Positions 2,070 through 39,090 of a DNA stretch of 64,000 nucleotides are shown here, in pieces. The DNA lies in the IMG/VR virus record IMGVR_UViG_3300036399_001297, positions 19,005-83,004 of that record, one strand, 5' to 3'. Numbering within the stretch: the first letter of the stretch is position 1; each line of letters starts with the position of its first letter. A model generated the notes under the pieces. It had not been told where the DNA came from. It saw only the letters and a program-made list of their open reading frames with translations, and ran no database searches. A program made the position numbers and the translations under genes. This stretch comes from a virus.

Positions 2070-3569
2070 CTAACAATTAGCATTATCGTATGTACAAGAT
2101 CCATCGTCACACATATAGTTAACATTTGGATTATAATTAGATGAACAATAGTCTGTACATCCTCTTACTTCTGGTAAACATGAACCATCATCAAATTGAG
2201 CCGAATAACTATAATTCGAAGAACATGGATTTGTACAACCAAAATATTCAGGACAATTTGCATAATCGTAATTACAAGACCCATCATCACATAAAACAGA
2301 TGGGTTATAGTTAGATGAACAATAATCATTTAAACAACCCTTACTTTCAGCATTACACGATCCGTCATCTATTACCGCAGTATAATCATAATTCGATGAA
2401 CATGGATTTGTACATCCATATGTTATTAGAGTTCCGATTGCGTTTTGATATTCTATTGGATATCCGCCATATTGATCGGTGCAATTTGAACAAGTTCTAC
2501 TTTGTTGAAAGTATTGTCCTTGCGGAACAGTGGAAGGATCAGGTGTCCAAGATGTCCAATTTGGTGTTGTAATACCAACAGCAGATTTAGTTTGATTCGT
2601 AAAACAACCTCCCAAGTCACTTCTAGATTGTGTGAAAATTGTATTAAAGCAATAGTTAGTCGGTTCTGGTGTCCAATTTGACCAATTAGGAGTTGTACAA
2701 GGTTCTGAATACTCATAGGTTCTTATAACACCGCTTTCACATTTAACGCCTGCCCAAGATACACTTCCAACTTCAGGTGGACATGTACCACAATTCTGCG
2801 AACTTGCGTATCTTCCGTATTCATCATAATTCCATATATATTCTCCTAATTGAATAAATTCACAATTCGTTTCTCTGCCATAACCATATCTTAAATTTGG
2901 TTGTATCGTACATGTGAAATTTAATATACAATCACCTCCGGTATTACAATATGGATCATAATAACTAAGAATACTACCACTACCGAAACCACTGCAATCA
3001 TCTGGACCGCAACTTCCAGTATGATATGCAGAATCTGGTGGATACTCAATTTTCATTTCTCTTGTTTTGTAATAAGTACCGTTAGATAAAAATTTACAGC
3101 TTGTATTTACTATAGGTGCTGGCGGCGTCCATTCGGGTAAAACTATTAAAGTAGGCGTAGGATTAGGTGTATTAGTAGGTGTTCCTGTTGGTGTATTAGT
3201 AGGTGTTCCTGTTGGTGTATTAGTAGGCGTCTCTGTCGGAGTATTAGTAGGTGTCTCTGTCGGAGTATTTGTTGGTATAGGTGTATTAGTAGGTGTTCCT
3301 GTAGGTGTTATAGTGGGATTATTAGTAGGTAAAGGTGTATTAGTAGGTGTTCCGGTAGGAGTGCTAGTAGGAACCAGAGACGGTACAGGCGTGGGTGTAG
3401 GAGGAACTGGTGTAGAAGTAGGTCTAGGTGTGGGGGTAGGTGTATACAAATAGTCAGTATCACAACACGTAATTGTTTTACCATCAAGACATTCAAAAAC
3501 CATATGTGGAATTTTTCCATAATCCACAGATTTAAAACGACCTCCAGCTAAATTTATTTTATTATACAC
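2070..3569 (-). CDS. Thr/Pro-repeat, Cys-rich surface protein (putative adhesin or fibre)
   Basis: A 499-residue modular protein. After about 45 residues comes a long Thr/Pro stalk ([12 protein letters not shown] units, about residues 42-142). Next are two thrombospondin-1-like stretches ([10 protein letters not shown] and [10 protein letters not shown], each followed by spaced Cys). The C-terminus has four Cys repeats of the type [15 protein letters not shown], known from Bacteroidota surface proteins. There is no obvious signal peptide, so a virion-displayed host-binding protein fits best, by inference. The start is GTG at 3569, behind an ATAAGTAT element. The repeats make length variation likely. 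Confidence 0.75.
3151..3447 (-). repeat. Thr/Pro-coding tandem repeat
   Basis: Degenerate units of about 24 bases (core GTATTAGTAGGTGTTCCTGT as read on the plus strand) encode TNTPTGTP-like octads in the 2070-3569 protein. Several adjacent units are identical in DNA, suggesting recent slippage or unequal recombination. Confidence 0.85.
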
Positions 3570-3574
3570 TTTGA

Positions 3575-3582
3575 ATACTTAT
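3575..3582 (-). promoter_or_regulatory. Late-promoter-like ATAAGTAT element
   Basis: Minus-strand AATAAGTATTCAAAGTG places the element 5 bases before the GTG start of the Thr/Pro-repeat protein, supporting that unusual start codon. Confidence 0.45.
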
Positions 3583-3632
3583 TTTTTTTTACAAAAAATA
3601 TTGATATTTATTGTTTTTGTAATAATATATAA

Positions 3633-3640
3633 TATAAATT
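3633..3640 (+). promoter_or_regulatory. TATAAATT late-promoter-like element
   Basis: TATAAATT abuts the ATG at 3641 directly, the same arrangement as before the tail sheath gene on the minus strand. It may drive the glycosyltransferase cassette. An overlapping TATAAT at 3628-3633 could be a host-type -10 box, but no convincing -35 was found. Confidence 0.4.
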
Positions 3641-5101
3641 ATGCCAAAAATTGGAGTAGCTATTATAACCTTTAACAGACCCGACTATTATAAACAAGTA
3701 TTAGAAAAGATACCAAAAAATAAAATAGATCATTTAATTGTTATAAATGATGGTAAAAATGTATATGTTGAAAATAATGATGCTGATTGTGTTATAAAAA
3801 ATAATACTCAATTAGGGGTAGCCATTTCAAAAAATAAAGCTCTAAAAATTTTAATAGAAAAATACGAGTGTGATTATATCTTTATAGTCGAAGATGATGT
3901 TTTAATTTTAGATGAAAACGTTTTTGATATTTATATTGATACTGCAAATATTTTTGGGGTGCATCATTTAAATTTTGAAAAGGTTGCAGGAAATGATAAG
4001 ACTTTAAAATATTCGTATGAATCACCGTCAGGACATTCTATTGGTTTTTATCACAACCCTCAAGGAGCATTTTCATTTTTCAATAGCAATATAATTAAAA
4101 AGTTAGGATACTTTGATGAAAATTATACTAATGCATTTGAACATATTGATTTAGAATATAATTTAGCTAAAAATAAAGTAGCACCACCCTTTTGGTATTT
4201 TCCTGATGTTTTACATTCCGACAAACTTTTAACTACCATTGAAGGAAGTGATGAAAATTCTACTATAACAAATAAAGAAAAATACAGAGAAAATTGGGAT
4301 AAATCAGCCGAATATTTTGTAAAGAAACATGGATTTTTTACAAATACGATTCAAGAAATAGATAAAAAACTTCTACCGATGTTTTTAATACATCTTGAAA
4401 AAAATTATAGCAGAAAAAAACTATACAATAAGAATAAAAAGTTAGCAATCATAATTCCTTACAGAGACAGAAAATTAGCATTGGATACTATTATACCAAA
4501 ACTGTCCGAATATGTGTCAAAACAAGTTGAAAATTTTGAAATGTTTGTTGTAGAACAAGACAATAATAATCCTTTTAATAAAGGACTATTAAACAATCTC
4601 GGATTTTTAATAAATCCTGATTTTGATTATTATTGTTTTCATGATGTTGATTTGATACCAGAATTTTCGGATTATTCTTATCCCGAAAAACCAACACATT
4701 TAAGTTCTCATTGTAGTCAATTTAATTATATTAATATTCCAGATAAAATAATGGGAGGAGTTATAACTTTTCAAAAAGAACATTTTATAAAAGTAAACGG
4801 ATATCCTAACAATTTTGAAGGATGGGGGAAAGAAGATGATTGCTTATATTTGAGATGTGAAAAAAATAATTTAAATCCGTATAAACATCCATTCGGCCGA
4901 TATTTTTCAGTACCTCATCAACATAGATTAACAAATGAAATTGAAAATGAATTACATCTAAAAAACGGTAAAAAGTTTAAAGAAGAATCCGAAGGATTAT
5001 CTAACGGAGATATCAATGGGTTATCAACCATTGACATTAATAAATTTTTACTTAATATTAAGAAGGAAAATTTATATACACATATAAAAATTAAATTATA
5101 A
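3641..5101 (+). CDS. Two-domain glycosyltransferase: GT2-like fused to GT7 galactosyltransferase-like
   Basis: A 486-residue fusion. Residues 1 to about 250 form a GT-A domain paralogous to the 111-965 protein (IITFNRPDYY, VEDDVLI). From about residue 265 a second GT-A domain has the hallmarks of the beta-1,4-galactosyltransferase (GT7) family: AIIIPYRDR, the DxD-type FHDVDLIPE, GGVITF, NGYPNNF and the diagnostic EGWGKEDD. The donor is probably a UDP-hexose, as in GT7, but this is inferred. A linker with KNYSRKKLYNKNKK separates the domains. It starts the downstream cassette, with gaps of only 1-2 bases between genes. Confidence 0.85.
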   Translation: MPKIGVAIITFNRPDYYKQVLEKIPKNKIDHLIVINDGKNVYVENNDADCVIKNNTQLGVAISKNKALKILIEKYECDYIFIVEDDVLILDENVFDIYIDTANIFGVHHLNFEKVAGNDKTLKYSYESPSGHSIGFYHNPQGAFSFFNSNIIKKLGYFDENYTNAFEHIDLEYNLAKNKVAPPFWYFPDVLHSDKLLTTIEGSDENSTITNKEKYRENWDKSAEYFVKKHGFFTNTIQEIDKKLLPMFLIHLEKNYSRKKLYNKNKKLAIIIPYRDRKLALDTIIPKLSEYVSKQVENFEMFVVEQDNNNPFNKGLLNNLGFLINPDFDYYCFHDVDLIPEFSDYSYPEKPTHLSSHCSQFNYINIPDKIMGGVITFQKEHFIKVNGYPNNFEGWGKEDDCLYLRCEKNNLNPYKHPFGRYFSVPHQHRLTNEIENELHLKNGKKFKEESEGLSNGDINGLSTIDINKFLLNIKKENLYTHIKIKL

Positions 5102-18043: not shown

Positions 18044-19435
18044 ATGCAACCAGCATCTCTATCTTTCGATAAGAAATTATTTGAGAAAGTTTTTATATAT
18101 AATTGTCTAAAGGATTCTTTATATTTAGAGACTGTAATTGATCACACTAAACCATCATTCTTTCAAAACGAAAATATTAGAACGGTTTATAGCGTTATAC
18201 ATTCGTATTTCTGTTTACATAAAAAAATACCAAATTCAACAGAATTAAATCTTCATGTTACGGATGATGATACTAGAAAATCTTTAAAAGATGTGATTTT
18301 GTCGTTTAAAGATATTGATAAAACCTATGATAAAGATGTTTTATTAAATATAACCGAAAAATTTTTAAAGGAAAAAACAGTACTTCAAACTGTTCAGAAA
18401 ACATCAGTAGAAATACAATCGGGAGATTTCGATACTTCTAAAATTTTTAAAGAATTTGAGAAGGCTTGCAATATATCTTTAGTACATGATCACGGTATAG
18501 ATTATTTAGAAAATATAGATAAACATTGTGAAGATTTGTTAAAAACCTTTGAAACTATATCAACCGGATGGTCTTGGTTGGATGATAAATTAGGCGGCGG
18601 TTTTATGAAAAACGGAAAATCTTTATATCTGTTTTTCGGTCAAACTAATGTTGGAAAATCTATTTTTTTGGGAAATATAGCAACAAATGTACTAGAGCAA
18701 AATAAAACTGTTGTGTTAATTTCGATGGAAATGTCGGAAGAAGTATATGCAAAAAGAATCAGTGCTTGTATTTCTGACATACCGATGAGTGATTTAAAAG
18801 AAGAAATCCCAAGTTTAAAAACATATCTAAATGACTATAAAAATAATCACGAAAAATCAAAATTGATCATTAAAGAATTTCCACCTAAAAGTGTCACTCC
18901 TACACATATTAAAACTTATATACATAGATTGGTGAGAAAAGGAATTAAACCAGAATTAATAGTAATCGACTACCTATCTCTTATTTCAGCCGGAACAAAA
19001 GGATTAAATAGTTACGAATCGCAAAAAGAAGTAGCCGAACAAATAAGAAGTCTTTCTTATGAATTCGAATGCAGTATAGTCACAGCAGTACAAACAAATC
19101 GATCTGGTTATGGAGACAACCAACCCGAATTGGAATCTACATCAGAATCAATGGGAATTGCTCATACGGTAGATGCTCAAATATCTATATGGACAAGTGA
19201 AGAGGATAAAGATTTACATGTAATCCATATGGGGGTAGTCAAAAACCGATTTGGACCTAGAGATTGTCAAACTATTTTAGAAATAGATTACCCAACATTA
19301 AAATTAAAGGAGCCAGATGATGTAATTGATGATCTAGCGGTAAAAACTAGACCGATCAAAAAAAATATTGAGTCTTCTGATAATTTAAAAATTAAAAGTA
19401 CATTAGATATTATACAGAGTTTAGACAATGATTGA
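18044..19435 (+). CDS. 41: Replicative DNA helicase gp41 (DnaB-like)
   Basis: Hexameric 5'-3' helicase of the phage replisome. The N-terminal about 150 residues are helical. Then comes STGWSWLDDKLGGG, Walker A FFGQTNVGKSIF, VVLISMEMSEE, Walker B ELIVIDYLSLI and the sensor-like VTAVQTNRSG. Late DAQISIW and VVKNRFGPRD carry the arginine-finger region. Its 463 residues are close to the T4 protein (475). It starts 6 bases after uvsX stops, making a recombination-replication operon. No intein is present here, although gp41 is a known split-intein host in metagenomic phages. Confidence 0.93.
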   Translation: MQPASLSFDKKLFEKVFIYNCLKDSLYLETVIDHTKPSFFQNENIRTVYSVIHSYFCLHKKIPNSTELNLHVTDDDTRKSLKDVILSFKDIDKTYDKDVLLNITEKFLKEKTVLQTVQKTSVEIQSGDFDTSKIFKEFEKACNISLVHDHGIDYLENIDKHCEDLLKTFETISTGWSWLDDKLGGGFMKNGKSLYLFFGQTNVGKSIFLGNIATNVLEQNKTVVLISMEMSEEVYAKRISACISDIPMSDLKEEIPSLKTYLNDYKNNHEKSKLIIKEFPPKSVTPTHIKTYIHRLVRKGIKPELIVIDYLSLISAGTKGLNSYESQKEVAEQIRSLSYEFECSIVTAVQTNRSGYGDNQPELESTSESMGIAHTVDAQISIWTSEEDKDLHVIHMGVVKNRFGPRDCQTILEIDYPTLKLKEPDDVIDDLAVKTRPIKKNIESSDNLKIKSTLDIIQSLDND

Positions 19436-32671: not shown

Positions 32672-33282
32672 AAAACAGTATTGCAAGTAGAGTCATCAAC
32701 ATCTTTTAATAGATTTGCATGAACCTGATTGAATGAAAAAGAAACATTACATATAATTTCTGTTGGATCTTGATGAGATAATTTTACATCTGATAATGAT
32801 GTCGGAAAAGCATGAGTGTATTTAAACCCTATTATTCTATTGTTAAATTCATCTAAAGCGTATGTTGTAACGGTTGTAACAAAATCATACATTGTATTTT
32901 GGACCGCATTAGGACCAGCGGAATCGTCCTTTGTTTTATAATTGAAAACTGGAATACCGGATTTTTGATCATTGAATAAATTTATCCATTTCCACAAAAT
33001 CCAATAATTTTTCCAACCATTATCAATAACAAAAGGAACACTCAATCCAGTATATGCAGGTCTTGATATAGATGAAGCCTTTAAAACCTGTCCACCAAAA
33101 GGAACATCTATCGCAGGAACACTAACAGTAGGAACAGGAGATCCGTAACAAGTATATTGGACCGTATCGGGATGAAAATCGCTTTTTAAAAGATTATCGT
33201 ATTTACCTTTGAAATATTTAGGTAAATCTAAAACCAATAAAAATTTATCATTCCTTGCTCTATTTAATACAGCCTGATTCAT
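32668..33282 (-). CDS. Tail tube-like baseplate protein
   Basis: A 204-residue protein with a tube-fold look: early LLVLDLPKYFKG, VSVPAIDVPFGGQVLKASS, WILWKWINLF, TVTTYALDEFNNRIIGF and late ICNVSFSFNQVHANLL. This strand order and the KYTHAFPTSLSDVKLS segment (polar-to-buried switch with F-P) are typical of gp19-related tube and tube-initiator proteins. Lying next to the hub gene, it may form the first ring between hub and tube. Its exact T4 counterpart is not clear. Confidence 0.6.
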   Translation of the reverse strand: MNQAVLNRARNDKFLLVLDLPKYFKGKYDNLLKSDFHPDTVQYTCYGSPVPTVSVPAIDVPFGGQVLKASSISRPAYTGLSVPFVIDNGWKNYWILWKWINLFNDQKSGIPVFNYKTKDDSAGPNAVQNTMYDFVTTVTTYALDEFNNRIIGFKYTHAFPTSLSDVKLSHQDPTEIICNVSFSFNQVHANLLKDVDDSTCNTVL

Positions 33283-33300
33283 AAAAATACTTAATATGAT

Positions 33301-34983
33301 TTAAAAAAATACCAGAGGATTATAACCGTCTTCGTTTTTTAATTCTTGTTCCTTTTTATCATTAGATCTCCAAATTATTTCTGGACTATGAGATTTGTAT
33401 TCATATTCGTATCTATTTTTTGTAATATTAGGTTCCCATTTAAGTAATTCCGATTGAAATCCTAATCCTTCTGATATAACAGCCGGATCTTCTTTTATTT
33501 TACCTTCGGGTAAATAGGCTAGGGGAGCATTATAAGATATTTCTTTTTTTGTGGTATTAACCGTACCAAATATAATAGGACTCTTTTTAATAAGATCGGA
33601 ATTATCGATAAAAGGAGTCATAAATAATGGTCTTCCTTGATCATCGGTTTGTTTAACATTAAAATATTTTTGTGCTAATGTTGGTTCTAGGATAAATAAA
33701 GCCCATACTAATGACCAAACTCTATCATCTCTATCACTTTCATTTTTTTTAGAAAATGTGTAATTAGGCAGTTGTACAAATTCTGCTATTTCTATTAAAG
33801 TATCGAGATCAAATATTTTAACAGCTTTTAAACTATCTACCCAATAACGGAAATTTGTCATACTCCGATATCTAGTATTCGTATGATTGTATATACCCAA
33901 TCTATTTTCATTATTGTAGTGCTGAGACATCCCCTCAAATTTATAAGTAACCACTGATTCATAATTGTGGGTTCTGGCAACAACATCTAAAACCTGTTGA
34001 CCGTAATTATTGTTTTCGATTAGTATAGGAGGTCTACCCCAATCATTTGCGATACCGATAAGACGTGTACCGAAATGATACGGTGTTATAGTATTGGATG
34101 CAAATATAGCCACCTGTTCTATATTGGTTAAATCTGAAACATCTAAAACTTGAGCTACTGTATTAGTTCTTCCTATCCCCTCACCAACGTCCACCCCTAT
34201 AATATAATGACTTGTTGGTTTTGGTTGTCTATAAATTTTATAAGAACCTTCGTCTGTTGCTAAAATAGGCTCTTTACATAATTTTTTAAGTTCTTCTAAA
34301 TGTTCGGCTGATATAACAGATTTGCCTAACGTATGAAAAGTATTTTCGTGTTCTTGTTGAAATGTATGTAGTGATCCTAATGAAGCTATTTCACTTTTCT
34401 TCCATTCTTCATTACGGTCATCATTTTCACTCCAATGCACTTTTTCCAGTTTCCATCCACTGTCAGGTTTTTGAGCTTCTAAATATAATTGATAAAATTT
34501 ATTTTCTTTATCGGCTCCGTTAGGTGTAGATATTCCAACAATCTGACTTTTTTTAGAAGACGTTATAGTAGGTATAACAGATTTCCATAATTCCTCCATC
34601 AAATCATTTTGTATATGTGCCATTTCATCAATTATGAGGCATTGATGTGATAATATATTATTAGAAATATATTTATGATTATCTACAACTTCTAAAAATT
34701 CATAAACAGGATCATTATTTTCATATTCCTCTTTTTTTATTAAAGAAATATTATTCCAAAAAATATCACCGATTTTAGAATTTTTAGCATATTTCCATTT
34801 TTTTGATGAAATCATAATTTTATGTTTAGGTGTACAGTTTAAAATTTCACCATTAGAAAAGTATAATTTTAACTTTTTATTATTTTTTCCAACAATTAAT
34901 CCTTTAAAATCTTTAAATCCCTCATCGGTTAAAATTTCAAAATCATTATTTTTATAAATTTTGTAATCAGATAAATCGGCCAT
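33301..34983 (-). CDS. 17: Terminase large subunit, intein C-half plus C-extein (nuclease part)
   Basis: Last part of fractured terL. From ATG 34983 the first 114 residues are an intein C-half ending ILSHQ. The C-extein then starts CLIIDEMAHI, the Walker B, and continues with GISTPNGADKENKFYQLY, FQQEHENTFHTLG and the RNase-H-like nuclease: YIIGVDVGEGIG, ILIENNNYGQQVLD and ESDRDDRVWSLVWALFI, with its acidic catalytic residues. The 446-residue extein plus the upstream pieces gives about 635 residues (T4 gp17 has 610). A GTG at 35013 is an alternative start but overlaps the endonuclease gene. Confidence 0.93.
   Translation of the reverse strand: MADLSDYKIYKNNDFEILTDEGFKDFKGLIVGKNNKKLKLYFSNGEILNCTPKHKIMISSKKWKYAKNSKIGDIFWNNISLIKKEEYENNDPVYEFLEVVDNHKYISNNILSHQCLIIDEMAHIQNDLMEELWKSVIPTITSSKKSQIVGISTPNGADKENKFYQLYLEAQKPDSGWKLEKVHWSENDDRNEEWKKSEIASLGSLHTFQQEHENTFHTLGKSVISAEHLEELKKLCKEPILATDEGSYKIYRQPKPTSHYIIGVDVGEGIGRTNTVAQVLDVSDLTNIEQVAIFASNTITPYHFGTRLIGIANDWGRPPILIENNNYGQQVLDVVARTHNYESVVTYKFEGMSQHYNNENRLGIYNHTNTRYRSMTNFRYWVDSLKAVKIFDLDTLIEIAEFVQLPNYTFSKKNESDRDDRVWSLVWALFILEPTLAQKYFNVKQTDDQGRPLFMTPFIDNSDLIKKSPIIFGTVNTTKKEISYNAPLAYLPEGKIKEDPAVISEGLGFQSELLKWEPNITKNRYEYEYKSHSPEIIWRSNDKKEQELKNEDGYNPLVFF
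34642..34983 (-). other. Intein C-half (IntC) of atypically split TerL intein
   Basis: This 114-residue half contains block B (LNCTPKHKIMI), which is in the N-half of ordinary split inteins, then block F (VYEFLEVVDNHKYI) and block G (NILSHQ). The terminal residue is Gln instead of Asn, followed by Cys +1 (34641-34639). The layout resembles the AceL-TerL class. Confidence 0.88.
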
Positions 34984-34984
34984 T

Positions 34985-35851
34985 TTATTTTTTTCTATGT
35001 TTTTTTCCACCACTTTTTATCCATCCAGTTGGAATATCTTGAGAAATAGGATGTCTTTTAATCTTATTTGTAGTCGTATCACATATAAAAATATATTTTT
35101 CTATACATTTTTTACCAGTGCCTTTTACCCATCCATCAGGTATAGTTATATCCGGATTATGTCGTTTACAAACATTAGCGACTGAGTTATATATATAAAT
35201 AGAACCTTTACCTGATATTTTTGATATATTTTCTTTATTATTTTCGCGTGATTTTAAAATACCATCCCTAATATTTTTTTTAGCTTCTTCGGATCTTTTC
35301 ATACCCCTGTGTTTTTCGGCCATTTTTTTAATTTTTTCGGGATTTTTATTGATTTTTATCATACGTTCTTTATGTTTTTCCGGATTTTCTTTTATCCATT
35401 TTTTAATACCAATTCCTTTTCTTTTATTTATTTCTGGATTATCAAAAACTTTTTCTCTCATCATTTTTTTATAGTCTTCAGATTTCCATTTTTTTTTAAA
35501 TCTTGTAGATATCTTTTTTATTGCCTTTGATGACCACGCACAAGGCCCATAGCCACCTTCTTTAATGTTATACGTATCATTTCTTTCTATAAATTCTAAT
35601 GTTACTAATTTTCTTTCGGCGTGAAGTGCTTCTTGATACGTATTATAAAAATTCAATATTGTTTTTTTAAAATTTTCTATTCCATATTTTTTTATGGATC
35701 TTTTTAAATTAAGACCAGACCCCATATAACCATCATCTATATTATCTGTCCTATGAACTCCTATATAAATTTTACCGTTTTTAATATTTTCAATTTCATA
35801 TAAATAATTGTATTTTCTATTTATTTTCGGATCGTTTAAATGTTTCTTCAT
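34985..35851 (-). CDS. GIY-YIG homing endonuclease inside terL
   Basis: A 288-residue free-standing endonuclease between the halves of the split TerL intein. The N-terminal catalytic domain has YLYEIENIKNGKIYIGVHR, followed by YMGSGLNLKRSIKKYG. The centre is a run of Lys-rich NUMOD3-like DNA-binding segments (NPEKIKKMAEKHRGMKRSEE). The C-terminus has two repeats ending in IPDGWVKGTGKK and IPTGWIKSGGKK. Its stop is 1 base before the IntC ATG. It has its own TATAAGTA element. It probably cuts intein-free terL alleles and drives spread of the locus, which is inferred. Confidence 0.88.
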   Translation of the reverse strand: MKKHLNDPKINRKYNYLYEIENIKNGKIYIGVHRTDNIDDGYMGSGLNLKRSIKKYGIENFKKTILNFYNTYQEALHAERKLVTLEFIERNDTYNIKEGGYGPCAWSSKAIKKISTRFKKKWKSEDYKKMMREKVFDNPEINKRKGIGIKKWIKENPEKHKERMIKINKNPEKIKKMAEKHRGMKRSEEAKKNIRDGILKSRENNKENISKISGKGSIYIYNSVANVCKRHNPDITIPDGWVKGTGKKCIEKYIFICDTTTNKIKRHPISQDIPTGWIKSGGKKHRKK

Positions 35852-35857
35852 TAGAAA

Positions 35858-35865
35858 TACTTATA
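35858..35865 (-). promoter_or_regulatory. TATAAGTA late-promoter-like element before the terL-inserted endonuclease
   Basis: Minus-strand TATAAGTATTTCTAATG: the element ends 6 bases before ATG 35851. Confidence 0.5.
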
Positions 35866-35898
35866 CACGATGATTTATTATAGATGAATTTGCTTATA

Positions 35899-37638
35899 TC
35901 AATCATTTAAAACTATAAAATGAGGCGGTTCTTCTTGATTATTTTTTAACAATTCTTCTAGATCTTTTAAATTGATTTTAAATATTTCTTCTGTTTTTTT
36001 ATCTTTTAATGTTACAATTGTGTCACCAGTAACACAATTTATAGATTGACCTCTAACAGCAGAAGCAGAAGTAGAAGAAACTATAATACTTGACCCATTA
36101 CTAAGATCGAATCCGTTTTTTCTATTAGATTTTACAGCTGGTTTTAAATATACAGGCAATTCTTCAAAAGCCATTTTTATTCTAGAAAAAATTTCCATGG
36201 CAGTATCAGCTTTGTTAGCCAGTATAGCAACTTTTTTATATTCATGAAAGCATACTAACCATAAAGCATACATGGAAACAATTGTGCTATTGTGAGTAGG
36301 TATTAAACCTTTTCCACATAGATATAAAGAATCTGGACTATCTACGGTGATACATCTAACAGGAACACTTTCTACTTCTTTAATATCTTTTATATAAAAA
36401 TATTGATTTCTTTTAGATGTTGACAAATAAGTTTTTACAAATCTAGAACATTTAAAATCCGAACAAGTAACACATTCTCTTGGTTTAAAATATAGAATAC
36501 CACATTTTGTATATTCTTTATCTTTAATTTTAGGTATTTTTTCATTATATTTTACCTTATATCCTAAACTTTCTATCAATTCTTTTACTTGTAAAATTAA
36601 AGGTATATTAGTATTATAAAAAATAGCACTTCCGTTTTTTTCAATATATCCATCAGAATCCATTAAACCTTTTAAAAGCTCCATTCTTTGATGTTTGGAT
36701 GCTTTTAAAAATATATCGGGTATATGTTTATTTTTAAATAAATTGTTAGTTCTTAAATGATAGTATAAAGAATTTTTTTTATCTTCGTTAGTTAATTTTA
36801 CAAGAAAATTGTCTTTTTTATATTCTTTAACGTTTATTATTTTATAAAAATCTAATTCTTTTATCTTTTTTAAAATAGAATCTATATCTCTTATTCCTAT
36901 AGTTATTCTAGAATCATTCGAATGTCCATCTCCTAACCACAAACCTAAAATATATGGATTTATAGGTAAATTCTTGTTATCATTATATAAACCATCTACA
37001 CACGAAATTATACGATGATTTGGTTCTCCGCTTAATGTCGTTAAAGTTTTTAAAATTTCTTCTGTTGTTTTTGAACAACCTTTACTTTTTTTAGTTTTTC
37101 TATCATTTCTAGTTTCAGTAAACCAAAGATGTTCAGCATCAGCGATTATTTTTTCACCGTTATCAAATAATATTTCGTAACATTTTCTATTGTGTAATAT
37201 ATCATGCGCTTTTGTTACGTTGTAGATGTTTCCGTCAGAACCATATATTTTATCTCCGGTTTTTAAATCTCCCATTTTTAAAAATCCATTTGGAGTTGGT
37301 ATAGGAGTTTCAATAGAAAGAGCTTTCCCCATCTGTCTCGAAGCACATACCAATAATCTTCTTTCGTCCTTTAAACTTTTTAATATTCTTTTTTGATATT
37401 TTCTAAGTTTAATTTTTATTTTACCTTCATCTAAATTTACAATATGAAAATGTCTTTCCGCAAAATGTAAAATACTTTTAGCACATGTTCTATTTTCTTC
37501 GAACATCTCTTCGGTAAAGATTATTTTTGCGTTCTTGTTTAGAAGATTTTCATTTCCTTTATAATATCCACCATCGACAAGAATATTATCTTTATCAATT
37601 TCAGGAACATCAGGAATAGGTGCTTTTTTTCTTGGCAT
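35899..37638 (-). CDS. 17: Terminase large subunit, N-extein with contiguous intein plus second IntN
   Basis: First part of fractured terL, 579 residues. Residues 1-105 are extein ending LVCASRQMGK. Residues 106-450 are a contiguous intein with a LAGLIDADG endonuclease domain. Residues 451-534 resume the ATPase: STIVSMYALW, VAILANKADTAMEIF, DLSNGSSIIVSS and AVRGQSIN. Residues 535-579 are the N-half of a second, split intein (CVTGDTIVTL). Removing the first intein restores the Walker A SRQMGKST, comparable to T4 SRQLGKTT. The packaging ATPase therefore needs one cis- and one trans-splicing event. It starts 2 bases after gp53. Confidence 0.93.
   Translation of the reverse strand: MPRKKAPIPDVPEIDKDNILVDGGYYKGNENLLNKNAKIIFTEEMFEENRTCAKSILHFAERHFHIVNLDEGKIKIKLRKYQKRILKSLKDERRLLVCASRQMGKALSIETPIPTPNGFLKMGDLKTGDKIYGSDGNIYNVTKAHDILHNRKCYEILFDNGEKIIADAEHLWFTETRNDRKTKKSKGCSKTTEEILKTLTTLSGEPNHRIISCVDGLYNDNKNLPINPYILGLWLGDGHSNDSRITIGIRDIDSILKKIKELDFYKIINVKEYKKDNFLVKLTNEDKKNSLYYHLRTNNLFKNKHIPDIFLKASKHQRMELLKGLMDSDGYIEKNGSAIFYNTNIPLILQVKELIESLGYKVKYNEKIPKIKDKEYTKCGILYFKPRECVTCSDFKCSRFVKTYLSTSKRNQYFYIKDIKEVESVPVRCITVDSPDSLYLCGKGLIPTHNSTIVSMYALWLVCFHEYKKVAILANKADTAMEIFSRIKMAFEELPVYLKPAVKSNRKNGFDLSNGSSIIVSSTSASAVRGQSINCVTGDTIVTLKDKKTEEIFKINLKDLEELLKNNQEEPPHFIVLND
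35902..36036 (-). other. Intein N-half (IntN) of atypically split TerL intein
   Basis: 45 residues from Cys535 (CVTGDTIVTLKD, block A) to the stop. It lacks block B, which is found in the C-half, so the split lies unusually early in the intein. The insertion point follows AVRGQSIN, directly before Walker B. Confidence 0.88.
36289..37323 (-). other. Contiguous LAGLIDADG intein in the TerL Walker A motif
   Basis: 345 residues from Ala106 (ALSIETPIPTPNGF, an Ala-start block A) to Asn450 (GLIPTHN), followed by Ser +1. The inner endonuclease has both LAGLIDADG helices: YILGLWLGDGHSND and LLKGLMDSDGYIEKNG. Extein joining gives ...QMGK/STIV..., so the intein interrupts the P-loop Lys-Ser bond. Confidence 0.92.
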
Positions 37639-37639
37639 T

Positions 37640-37999
37640 TTATCTATTTAATTGTTTCTTTAATTCATTCAATACCATATAAACATAATCGGATTTCAAT
37701 ATTCTTAATGTTGTTCCATTTTCGGGAAATTCGACAGGATTTGATATTTGATTATATTCACAAACCAACCACCATAGATCAGTAGTATTATAAAATTTAT
37801 AAGAAATATAAGGCCATGTATCACCTTCTTTTGTTTGATATTGTTGATCTATTGTATTATCATTTGCCGGATAAACGGTAATATTTTTTAAAATATTATA
37901 AAATGTTGTTTTTGTTTCGTCATCATTATAAACATTAAAAAAATTTTCAAATCTATATACCGAAAGATTTTTTATAGGATTTTGTATGCTGTCATTCAT
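37640..37999 (-). CDS. 53: Baseplate wedge protein gp53
   Basis: A 119-residue wedge subunit. It has LSVYRFENFFNVYND at the start and the LysM-like core QTKEGDTWPYISYKFYNTT followed by DLWWLVCEYNQISNPVEF, the signature of gp53 and related phage wedge proteins. T4 gp53 is longer (196 residues), so this is a compact version. A CAATAAATAAT stretch precedes ATG 37999. Confidence 0.85.
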   Translation of the reverse strand: MNDSIQNPIKNLSVYRFENFFNVYNDDETKTTFYNILKNITVYPANDNTIDQQYQTKEGDTWPYISYKFYNTTDLWWLVCEYNQISNPVEFPENGTTLRILKSDYVYMVLNELKKQLNR

Positions 38000-38004
38000 A
38001 TTAT

Positions 38005-39090
38005 TTATTGTAGCTTGGGATTATATACGCCTCTCGCAAAAGCTCCGTTAGCACTACCGTCAGATTCTTTTTTATTTTCAACTAAAAAATCTTTAATATT
38101 TCCTAAAACCTCGTCAACACCCTTACCTTCTTCTATAACATCTATTTTGCTGCCCCCCATAGTACCTTCAAATACATTAGAACTTTGACTGAGTAAAGAT
38201 TGGAATGTTATCGATACACTATATCCTTCTGGTATTAATATATTACCGTATTCCTTTAAAACTCTAGTGGTTCCTATACTTTTAATATCTAATTTAGAAA
38301 TAAAAGCAACAGGCATATAAATACCCCCTTGATACACATTTTCGACTTTATATAGTTTTGGTGGCACATAACTCATAAAGGTTGTACGAGTTTTTAAATT
38401 TTGAAATGTTAATAATGTAATCAAACTATAATTTTTATAAGCTGATGCGGTATCGATTGTATTATATAATGGAAAACTTATGGTAAGTGTTTCTGCGCCA
38501 GATCCACTAAATTTTCTAACTTCTTCGGCTCCTACGCCAGTAAAAAGATTAGATACTATATTTTTACCCAACACTGCATCCTGAGCGCCTTTTATAAGAC
38601 CTCCTGCGATTGGTATATATTGAAGAGGATTTATTGCTCCAGCTACACCATCACCAAGCTCTATTAAACCTTCGGTAACACCTTTCATTGTAGTATCTGC
38701 TTCTTTATCCCATCTGTTAGAAACAGATCGTAAACTATCATTATTTTTTATTAGATGTGGAAATACATAATTAAATCCGGTTGGATTACCACTATACATT
38801 GTTAAATAGGGGTCCATACTTTTATCAGTTGCAAATAATTCATTTTTTAATTGCATGGCTCTTTGAATATTTGTAATAGTTTGCCCCCATGTTAATTCAT
38901 ATTCCTTAACCATTACACTAGGAACCTCATCAGTATCCCCACTAATTTTCCAAGGAAATGACCTCAAAACATTAATTAGAGAAGAACCCCCGTTTGGTTT
39001 AGCCTTAGAATATGTAACATTTCCTATAAACGGTATAGCTATAGTAACTTCATCTATATGAAAAAGATCAAAATTGTTTATAAATGCCAT
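38005..39090 (-). CDS. Baseplate tail tube cap or initiator (gp48/gp54-like)
   Basis: A 361-residue protein, nearly the size of T4 gp48 (364). It opens NFDLFHIDEVTIAIPFIGNV and has YELTWGQTITNIQRAMQL, NVYQGGIYMPVAFISKLDIK and PEGYSVSITFQSLL, a tube-fold pattern. The central Gly-rich helix (AGAINPLQYIPIAGGLIKG) may be an insertion. Lying between gp53 and the tape measure, as T4 genes 48 and 54 lie near 29, it probably caps the baseplate and nucleates the tube. Confidence 0.65.
   Translation of the reverse strand: MAFINNFDLFHIDEVTIAIPFIGNVTYSKAKPNGGSSLINVLRSFPWKISGDTDEVPSVMVKEYELTWGQTITNIQRAMQLKNELFATDKSMDPYLTMYSGNPTGFNYVFPHLIKNNDSLRSVSNRWDKEADTTMKGVTEGLIELGDGVAGAINPLQYIPIAGGLIKGAQDAVLGKNIVSNLFTGVGAEEVRKFSGSGAETLTISFPLYNTIDTASAYKNYSLITLLTFQNLKTRTTFMSYVPPKLYKVENVYQGGIYMPVAFISKLDIKSIGTTRVLKEYGNILIPEGYSVSITFQSLLSQSSNVFEGTMGGSKIDVIEEGKGVDEVLGNIKDFLVENKKESDGSANGAFARGVYNPKLQ

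Follow-up and report, generated by a model that had tools for sequence, protein, structure and literature searches.

The window analysed here is a stretch of 64,000 nucleotides (nt), positions 19,005 to 83,004 of the 83,004-base virus record IMGVR_UViG_3300036399_001297 of IMG/VR. On its minus strand it carries a phage gene for the large terminase TerL, the DNA-packaging motor, that is interrupted by a contiguous intein and, immediately before Walker B, by a second element. The latter is very probably a class 1 intein (Cys1, terminal Gln, Cys+1) with a natural and atypical split, its coding sequence being interrupted past block A by a free-standing Seg-like GIY-YIG endonuclease gene, and it would restore TerL by trans-splicing. 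The parts of the locus are given below in window coordinates, with slashes marking splice junctions here and in the text.

37324..37638, minus strand: TerL extein 1, 105 residues, ending at the Walker A Lys of SRQMGK
36289..37323, minus strand: contiguous TerL intein, 345 residues, with Ala1 and LAGLIDADG, ending in THN and followed by Ser (...THN/S)
36037..36288, minus strand: TerL extein 2, 84 residues, ending ...SASAVRGQSIN
35902..36036, minus strand: N-terminal intein half (IntN), 45 residues, with Cys1 and block A only; stop codon at 35899-35901
34985..35851, minus strand: free-standing Seg-like GIY-YIG homing endonuclease gene in the gap, 288 residues
34642..34983, minus strand: C-terminal intein half (IntC), 114 residues, with its own ATG, block B (TPKH), block F His, and the last residues SHQ
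33304..34641, minus strand: TerL extein 3, 446 residues, with Cys+1, Walker B (CLIIDE), and the nuclease domain; stop codon at 33301-33303

The open reading frame (ORF) at 37638..35899 (minus strand) runs through TerL to Walker A, the 345-residue intein, and TerL to ...RGQSIN into IntN and its stop codon. IntC starts at the ATG at 34983, one base past the TAA of the endonuclease gene, and ends ...NILSHQ at 34642, followed by Cys+1 in CLIIDEMAHIQ; the break point in TerL is thus SIN/CLIIDE at Walker B. The residues of a class 1 intein are present, i.e., Cys1 after ...SIN, Cys+1 before LIIDE, and Gln as a cyclizable last residue, and the two halves lie in separate ORFs with block B in IntC only, as in an atypically split intein. 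A preliminary description of this DNA had placed the split intein at 34642-36036 (minus strand), with block A but not block B in an IntN of 45 residues and block B in an IntC of 114; the ORFs bear out these halves, and the range agrees to the base with the ORF and junction reading. When joined, the exteins align with the intein-free TerL of L079 over 629 residues with 62% identity and with both junctions exact (L-numbers denote loci or contigs of relatives, and junctions are referenced to L079). The empty sites in the L079 protein are SGK/STIV and SIN/ILII. Given this match, the split-intein pattern cannot be put down to chance. Extein 3 matches Pfam Terminase_6C with 6.4e-4, below the cut-off of that family, and 1428 phage records match it. 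NCBIfam gave no name to the IntC-TerL-C protein or the endonuclease.

The gap ORF exceeds the curated Pfam cut-offs for SegE_GIY-YIG (28.8 bits; cut-off, 25) and GIY-YIG (23.3 bits; cut-off, 22.6), in agreement with the earlier assignment of a GIY-YIG endonuclease, and it is free-standing. Relatives were found by tblastn in 874 phage records, some of them annotated as Seg-like homing endonucleases, and the endonucleases of the family loci are also recognized by the family's own hidden Markov model. By Pfam and tblastn, the Seg-type GIY-YIG endonucleases of T4-like phages belong to the same family, but they lie between genes and not between the halves of an intein. Of the 36 loci showing both, 35 have the IntC start at a distance of -23 to +8 nt from the endonuclease stop; the 36th, L012, has a frameshifted endonuclease. 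The window's record contains a single GIY-YIG match and a single match for IntC. As a split intein and a free-standing endonuclease gene together interrupt the gene of a conserved enzyme, the locus has the make-up of a fractured gene.

Scans of IMG/VR yielded 12 relatives with the single sequence and 59 loci with a profile. Last residues were counted in 56 same-site rows, which comprise the profile-scan loci, L088, L104, and L110 from a later scan of site c, and the window, minus L003 and L009 (contigs ending within the junction; both read Gln), L072 (another site), and L074 to L077 (no same-site TerL junction). L013, whose partial IntC reads Gln, was likewise left out of the count, and L088 and L104 duplicate the contigs of L052 and L057, respectively. 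Gln is the last residue in 48 rows and Asn in 8; for the 37 distinct IntC sequences, the numbers are 30 and 7. The preliminary description had called Gln a less common C-terminal residue; in this family it is the rule, and in excerpts of the literature (PMC4031507), Gln is listed as a permitted variant. The window's Gln codon is CAA, two base changes away from any Asn codon, and the same ending recurs in independent contigs; an isolated sequencing error for Asn is therefore very unlikely, and the terminal Gln (SHQ/C) is taken to be real.

Block B T-x-x-H is present in all 37 distinct IntC sequences, and block F His in 34 of them (DNH in the window). Specifically, block F His is found in 30 of 30 Gln-enders and in 4 of 7 Asn-enders (P = 0.0045); as the sequences are related and not independent evidence, this contrast is a lead rather than a test. 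The penultimate residue is His in 18 of 30 Gln-enders and 2 of 7 Asn-enders. For Pho PolII, block F His has been proposed to activate Gln cyclization (PMC8229266, in the part consulted), a proposal that the pattern of the Gln-enders fits. On a tree of 52 rows, 37 of them different, the last-residue label changes five times, with three changes forced by well-supported branches and no direction assigned. The inteins of L004 (Gln) and L034 (Asn) are 83% identical. At another TerL site, Gln-ended split inteins (...SHQ/CDEF) precede CDEFAF or CDEFAH in L094, L095, and L107, and the intein of L092 at the CDEF site ends in Asn. The N-extein ends in CN in some loci, e.g., L007, L012, and L065.

The prevalence of Gln could be read as a brake, with slow cyclization sparing the IntC-TerL-C precursor from cleavage before it meets IntN and splicing being late or conditional. 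The high share of Gln among the distinct IntC sequences, its presence at the CDEF site, and the retention of block F His in every Gln-ender are in line with such a role, as is a 20-fold faster C-cleavage of Pab PolII upon exchange of Gln for Asn (PMC4031507, in excerpt). However, Asn recurs beside Gln, with at least three of the five changes forced, and is found even in the endonuclease-bearing split rows L034, L048, and L062, and the same excerpts describe better splicing of CIV RNR with Gln than with Asn. A brake is a tentative proposal that we consider doubtful.

The fold was examined in L065 (4875-5336), an unsplit homologue at the same TerL site that has no endonuclease and ends in THN. 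Its AlphaFold2 model reached a mean predicted local distance difference test (pLDDT) value of 94.7, and the best structural matches in Foldseek were inteins, the highest VIA-align Z score being 19.9 with TliVMA (root mean square deviation of 1.9 over 143 residues). A Hint fold is thus predicted for L065, and the window's halves are linked to it by homology. The split of the other members maps to the loop of residues 31 to 44, between the first helix (23 to 30) and the strand 45 to 51. L065 nests among split sequences in the tree (support 96/77) and may have arisen by re-joining instead of representing the ancestor.

Taken together, the locus suggests the following course. Translation would yield two precursors: TerL-N followed by IntN, and a product in which IntC precedes TerL-C and whose start codon is the ATG adjoining the endonuclease gene. 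IntN and IntC would associate into a single Hint fold, Cys1 and Cys+1 would carry out two acyl shifts, and cyclization of the terminal Gln would release the intein and leave TerL joined. Activation of the Gln would probably come from block F His, which is invariant, and not from the penultimate residue, which varies. Intein-free terL alleles would presumably receive the cassette through the action of the endonuclease. Several points weigh against this scheme. Gln ends are slow in some characterized inteins (excerpts of PMC4031507). IntN alone matched no intein in the PDB, so that its assignment relies on its position, Cys1, its family, and L065. Finally, the endonuclease has been lost from some genes of the family, so that persistence does not require homing.

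At the nucleotide level, the ratio of nonsynonymous to synonymous substitution rates (dN/dS) between the window and L002 or L003 was 0.03 to 0.04 over the intein and 0.14 over the endonuclease. Over eleven pairs, intein dN/dS was 0.03 to 0.18 in eight; of the remainder, one had a value of 0.22 with only two differences and two were saturated. Intein and endonuclease are under purifying selection. These values bear on the possibility that the halves work, or fail, without splicing, i.e., that they represent a decayed intein or a two-subunit terminase. The unusual last residue could be taken in this sense, and a division of the enzyme into an ATPase and a nuclease part can be imagined. This possibility is countered by the low intein dN/dS, the retention of the splicing residues over wide divergence, the position of the break immediately before Walker B, and, in L051 and L052, a Walker B piece of merely 11 residues that lies alone between two split inteins. 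We regard function or failure without splicing as very unlikely; the window rather contains a real and conserved split intein that is probably active and whose break is occupied by a homing endonuclease.

The nearest TerL beyond the window's near copies is the intein-free one of L079. Between the window and L004, L005, and L034, the identity of the inteins is 56 to 58%, whereas the C-exteins share only 43 to 45%; together with the empty L079 gene, this closer kinship of the intein than of the exteins points to a horizontal arrival. In other pairs, the exteins are better conserved, e.g., in L059/L066 (intein, 51%; extein, 80%). L079 TerL (2109-4016) has Ile, not Cys, at position +1, so that an incoming cassette must bring or require Cys. 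Cellular genome contigs gave 156 pattern matches, none of which was a relative.

Among the relatives, the same break point is found in a range of states. Most loci have a full GIY-YIG gene between IntN and IntC. In L055/L056 only the last 36 profile positions of the endonuclease are kept, and in L008, L030, L035/L036, L042/L044/L046/L047, L052/L088, and L071 the halves are separated by gaps of 2 to 74 nt. The gap reads as an endonuclease C-terminus in L030, L042, and L052 (0 of 500 shuffles each); the scar in L071 is suggestive (7 of 500) and that in L008 not significant (31 of 500), while the L035 gap is too short for the shuffle test. L053 (1961-3679) and L064 (3310-5013) carry a Vsr-like nuclease with DUF7487 in the gap, L064 with an additional Mom-family match, which from the sequences is an exchange of the endonuclease. 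In L049 (980-1465) and L050, an ORF of 161 residues with no match in Pfam or NCBIfam takes its place in the same gap, and the L049 gap contains no endonuclease scar (412 of 500 shuffles). The endonuclease is fused to IntC in L069. Its presence changes nine times on the tree. Since the split is kept beside deleted or decayed endonuclease genes, several lineages have retained the break longer than the endonuclease. Read together, the relatives display a life cycle at a single point of breakage, in which the endonuclease is intact, has decayed, has left a scar upon deletion, has been replaced, or is fused to IntC, besides one intein that is not split.

These loci also speak to an explanation at the RNA level, in which the gap is a self-splicing group I or group II intron with a GIY-YIG gene and RNA splicing would make the intein continuous. 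GIY-YIG genes often lie within group I introns. In ICP1 phages, a spliced terL beside a homing endonuclease has been reported (PMC10448857, in excerpt). Within 33000-38500, however, Rfam gave no match at E<=1; IntC starts with Met-Ala-Asp in 30 of the 37 distinct sequences, and the unsplit L065 has no Met there; and the endonuclease-deleted loci keep stop and start codons with gaps too short for an intron. An intron was therefore rejected as extremely improbable.

TerL carries inteins at several sites, including independent split ones, and some terminases have more than one break. In L051 (366-6246) and L052 (1-4250), which stem from different metagenomes, three split inteins divide TerL into four ORFs, of which the second consists of IntC-a, the 11-residue extein CLVIDEMAFIE, and IntN-b. 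The three IntC sequences within L051 are 34 to 37% identical to one another, and those of L051 and L052 are 89, 65, and 60% identical between the two loci. The proportion of nonsynonymous differences (pN) is well below that of synonymous ones (pS) for inteins b and c and exteins 3 and 4. By automatic count, 17 of 102 loci have at least two breaks; 12 were left after removal of the duplicate contigs L088 and L104 and the doubtful L017, L018, and L072, in which the first "break" is a P-loop intein with the N part unmatched or the ORF broken. Of the 12, L051 and L052 were read fully and L053 and L057 in part. We lean slightly toward the view that TerL acts as a gene-breaking ratchet, in which endonucleases open inteins at a fixed point and the breaks outlive them and accumulate, up to one enzyme in four separately translated pieces, among them the 11-residue Walker B piece between two intein halves, which three distinct split inteins would have to join; Gln together with the invariant block F His would then be a working standard and not a defect.

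The preliminary description had regarded the element as a relative of the AceL-TerL intein. In a comparison of the family profile with the PDB, the IntC of Cat (6dsl_B) ranked first (E=1.2e-8), followed by gp41-1 and VidaL, and the window IntC alone matched Cat IntC with E=1.4e-4, so that homology to TerL split inteins was borne out by alignment. Conversely, Cat IntC scored 68 bits (profile) and 43.6 bits (single) against inteins at the QEFE/CEF site, 44.5 bits against the intein of the cultured T4-like phage HY03 (IYIDE/C), and 38 bits (profile) and 25 bits (single) against the window family. With Cat IntC favoring other TerL sites, "AceL-TerL-like" holds for the type, whereas the insertion site is probably another one. 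AceL, GOS, and Cat share with the window the TerL host, a short IntN, block B in IntC, Cys+1, and IntC homology. AceL and GOS presumably end in Asn, whereas the window intein ends in Gln. The IntN of the three is shorter by about 8 to 20 residues, the IntN/IntC lengths being 25/104 for AceL, 37/115 for GOS, and 30/104 for Cat, an engineered consensus (PMC11766414, in the part consulted). The same protein, a similarly early split, and detectable homology could suggest that the element is orthologous to AceL-TerL, shares its insertion site, and has had its endonuclease exchanged; in view of the higher scores of Cat IntC at another site and of the independent split inteins at several TerL sites, this is unlikely. 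We favor a kinship that, judged by these comparisons, is real but distant, with a probably different insertion site.

Split inteins with a free-standing endonuclease are a known kind of arrangement, reportedly described by Dassa et al. in 2009 as "fractured genes" with a Vsr-like endonuclease as hallmark. The window shares with these the enzyme gene broken by a split intein and the free-standing endonuclease gene between the halves; unlike them, its family has GIY-YIG endonucleases, and a Vsr-like one appears only as a replacement (L053, L064). The T4-like phages HY03, Yersinia TG1, PspYZU05, and kaaroe likewise have a TerL split intein with an endonuclease between its halves, but the insertion lies a few residues further on (IYIDE/C), the intein ends in Asn, and the HY03 endonuclease is TnsA/restriction-like. 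In the Vibrio phages K469, 1.255.O, and VP-1 (L019, L024, L025), the TerL intein is also broken at a GIY-YIG nuclease; there, however, the site is in the TerL nuclease domain, the nuclease is fused in frame to IntN with IntC in the next ORF, and the end is Asn. The C-terminal Gln is shared with the Pab, Pho, and Mma PolII and CIV RNR inteins, which are contiguous and reside in other proteins. The value of the locus lies in its family, in which Gln is the usual ending, the break persists after the endonuclease that caused it is gone, and some relatives are broken three times. In the portion of the open-licence PMC literature covered, neither a Gln-ended naturally split intein family nor a naturally three-times-split terminase is reported, which is weak evidence of absence.

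The ordered natural states at one intein site allow the origin and persistence of split inteins to be examined with near neighbors, and matched Gln- and Asn-ended inteins such as those of L004 and L034 give access to the role of the last residue in trans-splicing. A Gln-ended split intein with short fragments is a possible tool, and the three-break terminases, if functional, would be a natural case of multi-fragment protein assembly by different split inteins.

The contiguous intein at Walker A belongs to the same gene and is separate from the split one. It matches Pfam LAGLIDADG_3 (6.6e-8) and Hom_end (1.9e-5), and in our sequence reading Trp, Cys, and Thr are positioned as in the WCT motif of class 3 inteins (PMC7664689, in excerpt); it is accordingly described as class-3-like. 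A single terminase in the window combines a class-3-like contiguous intein with a class 1 split intein.

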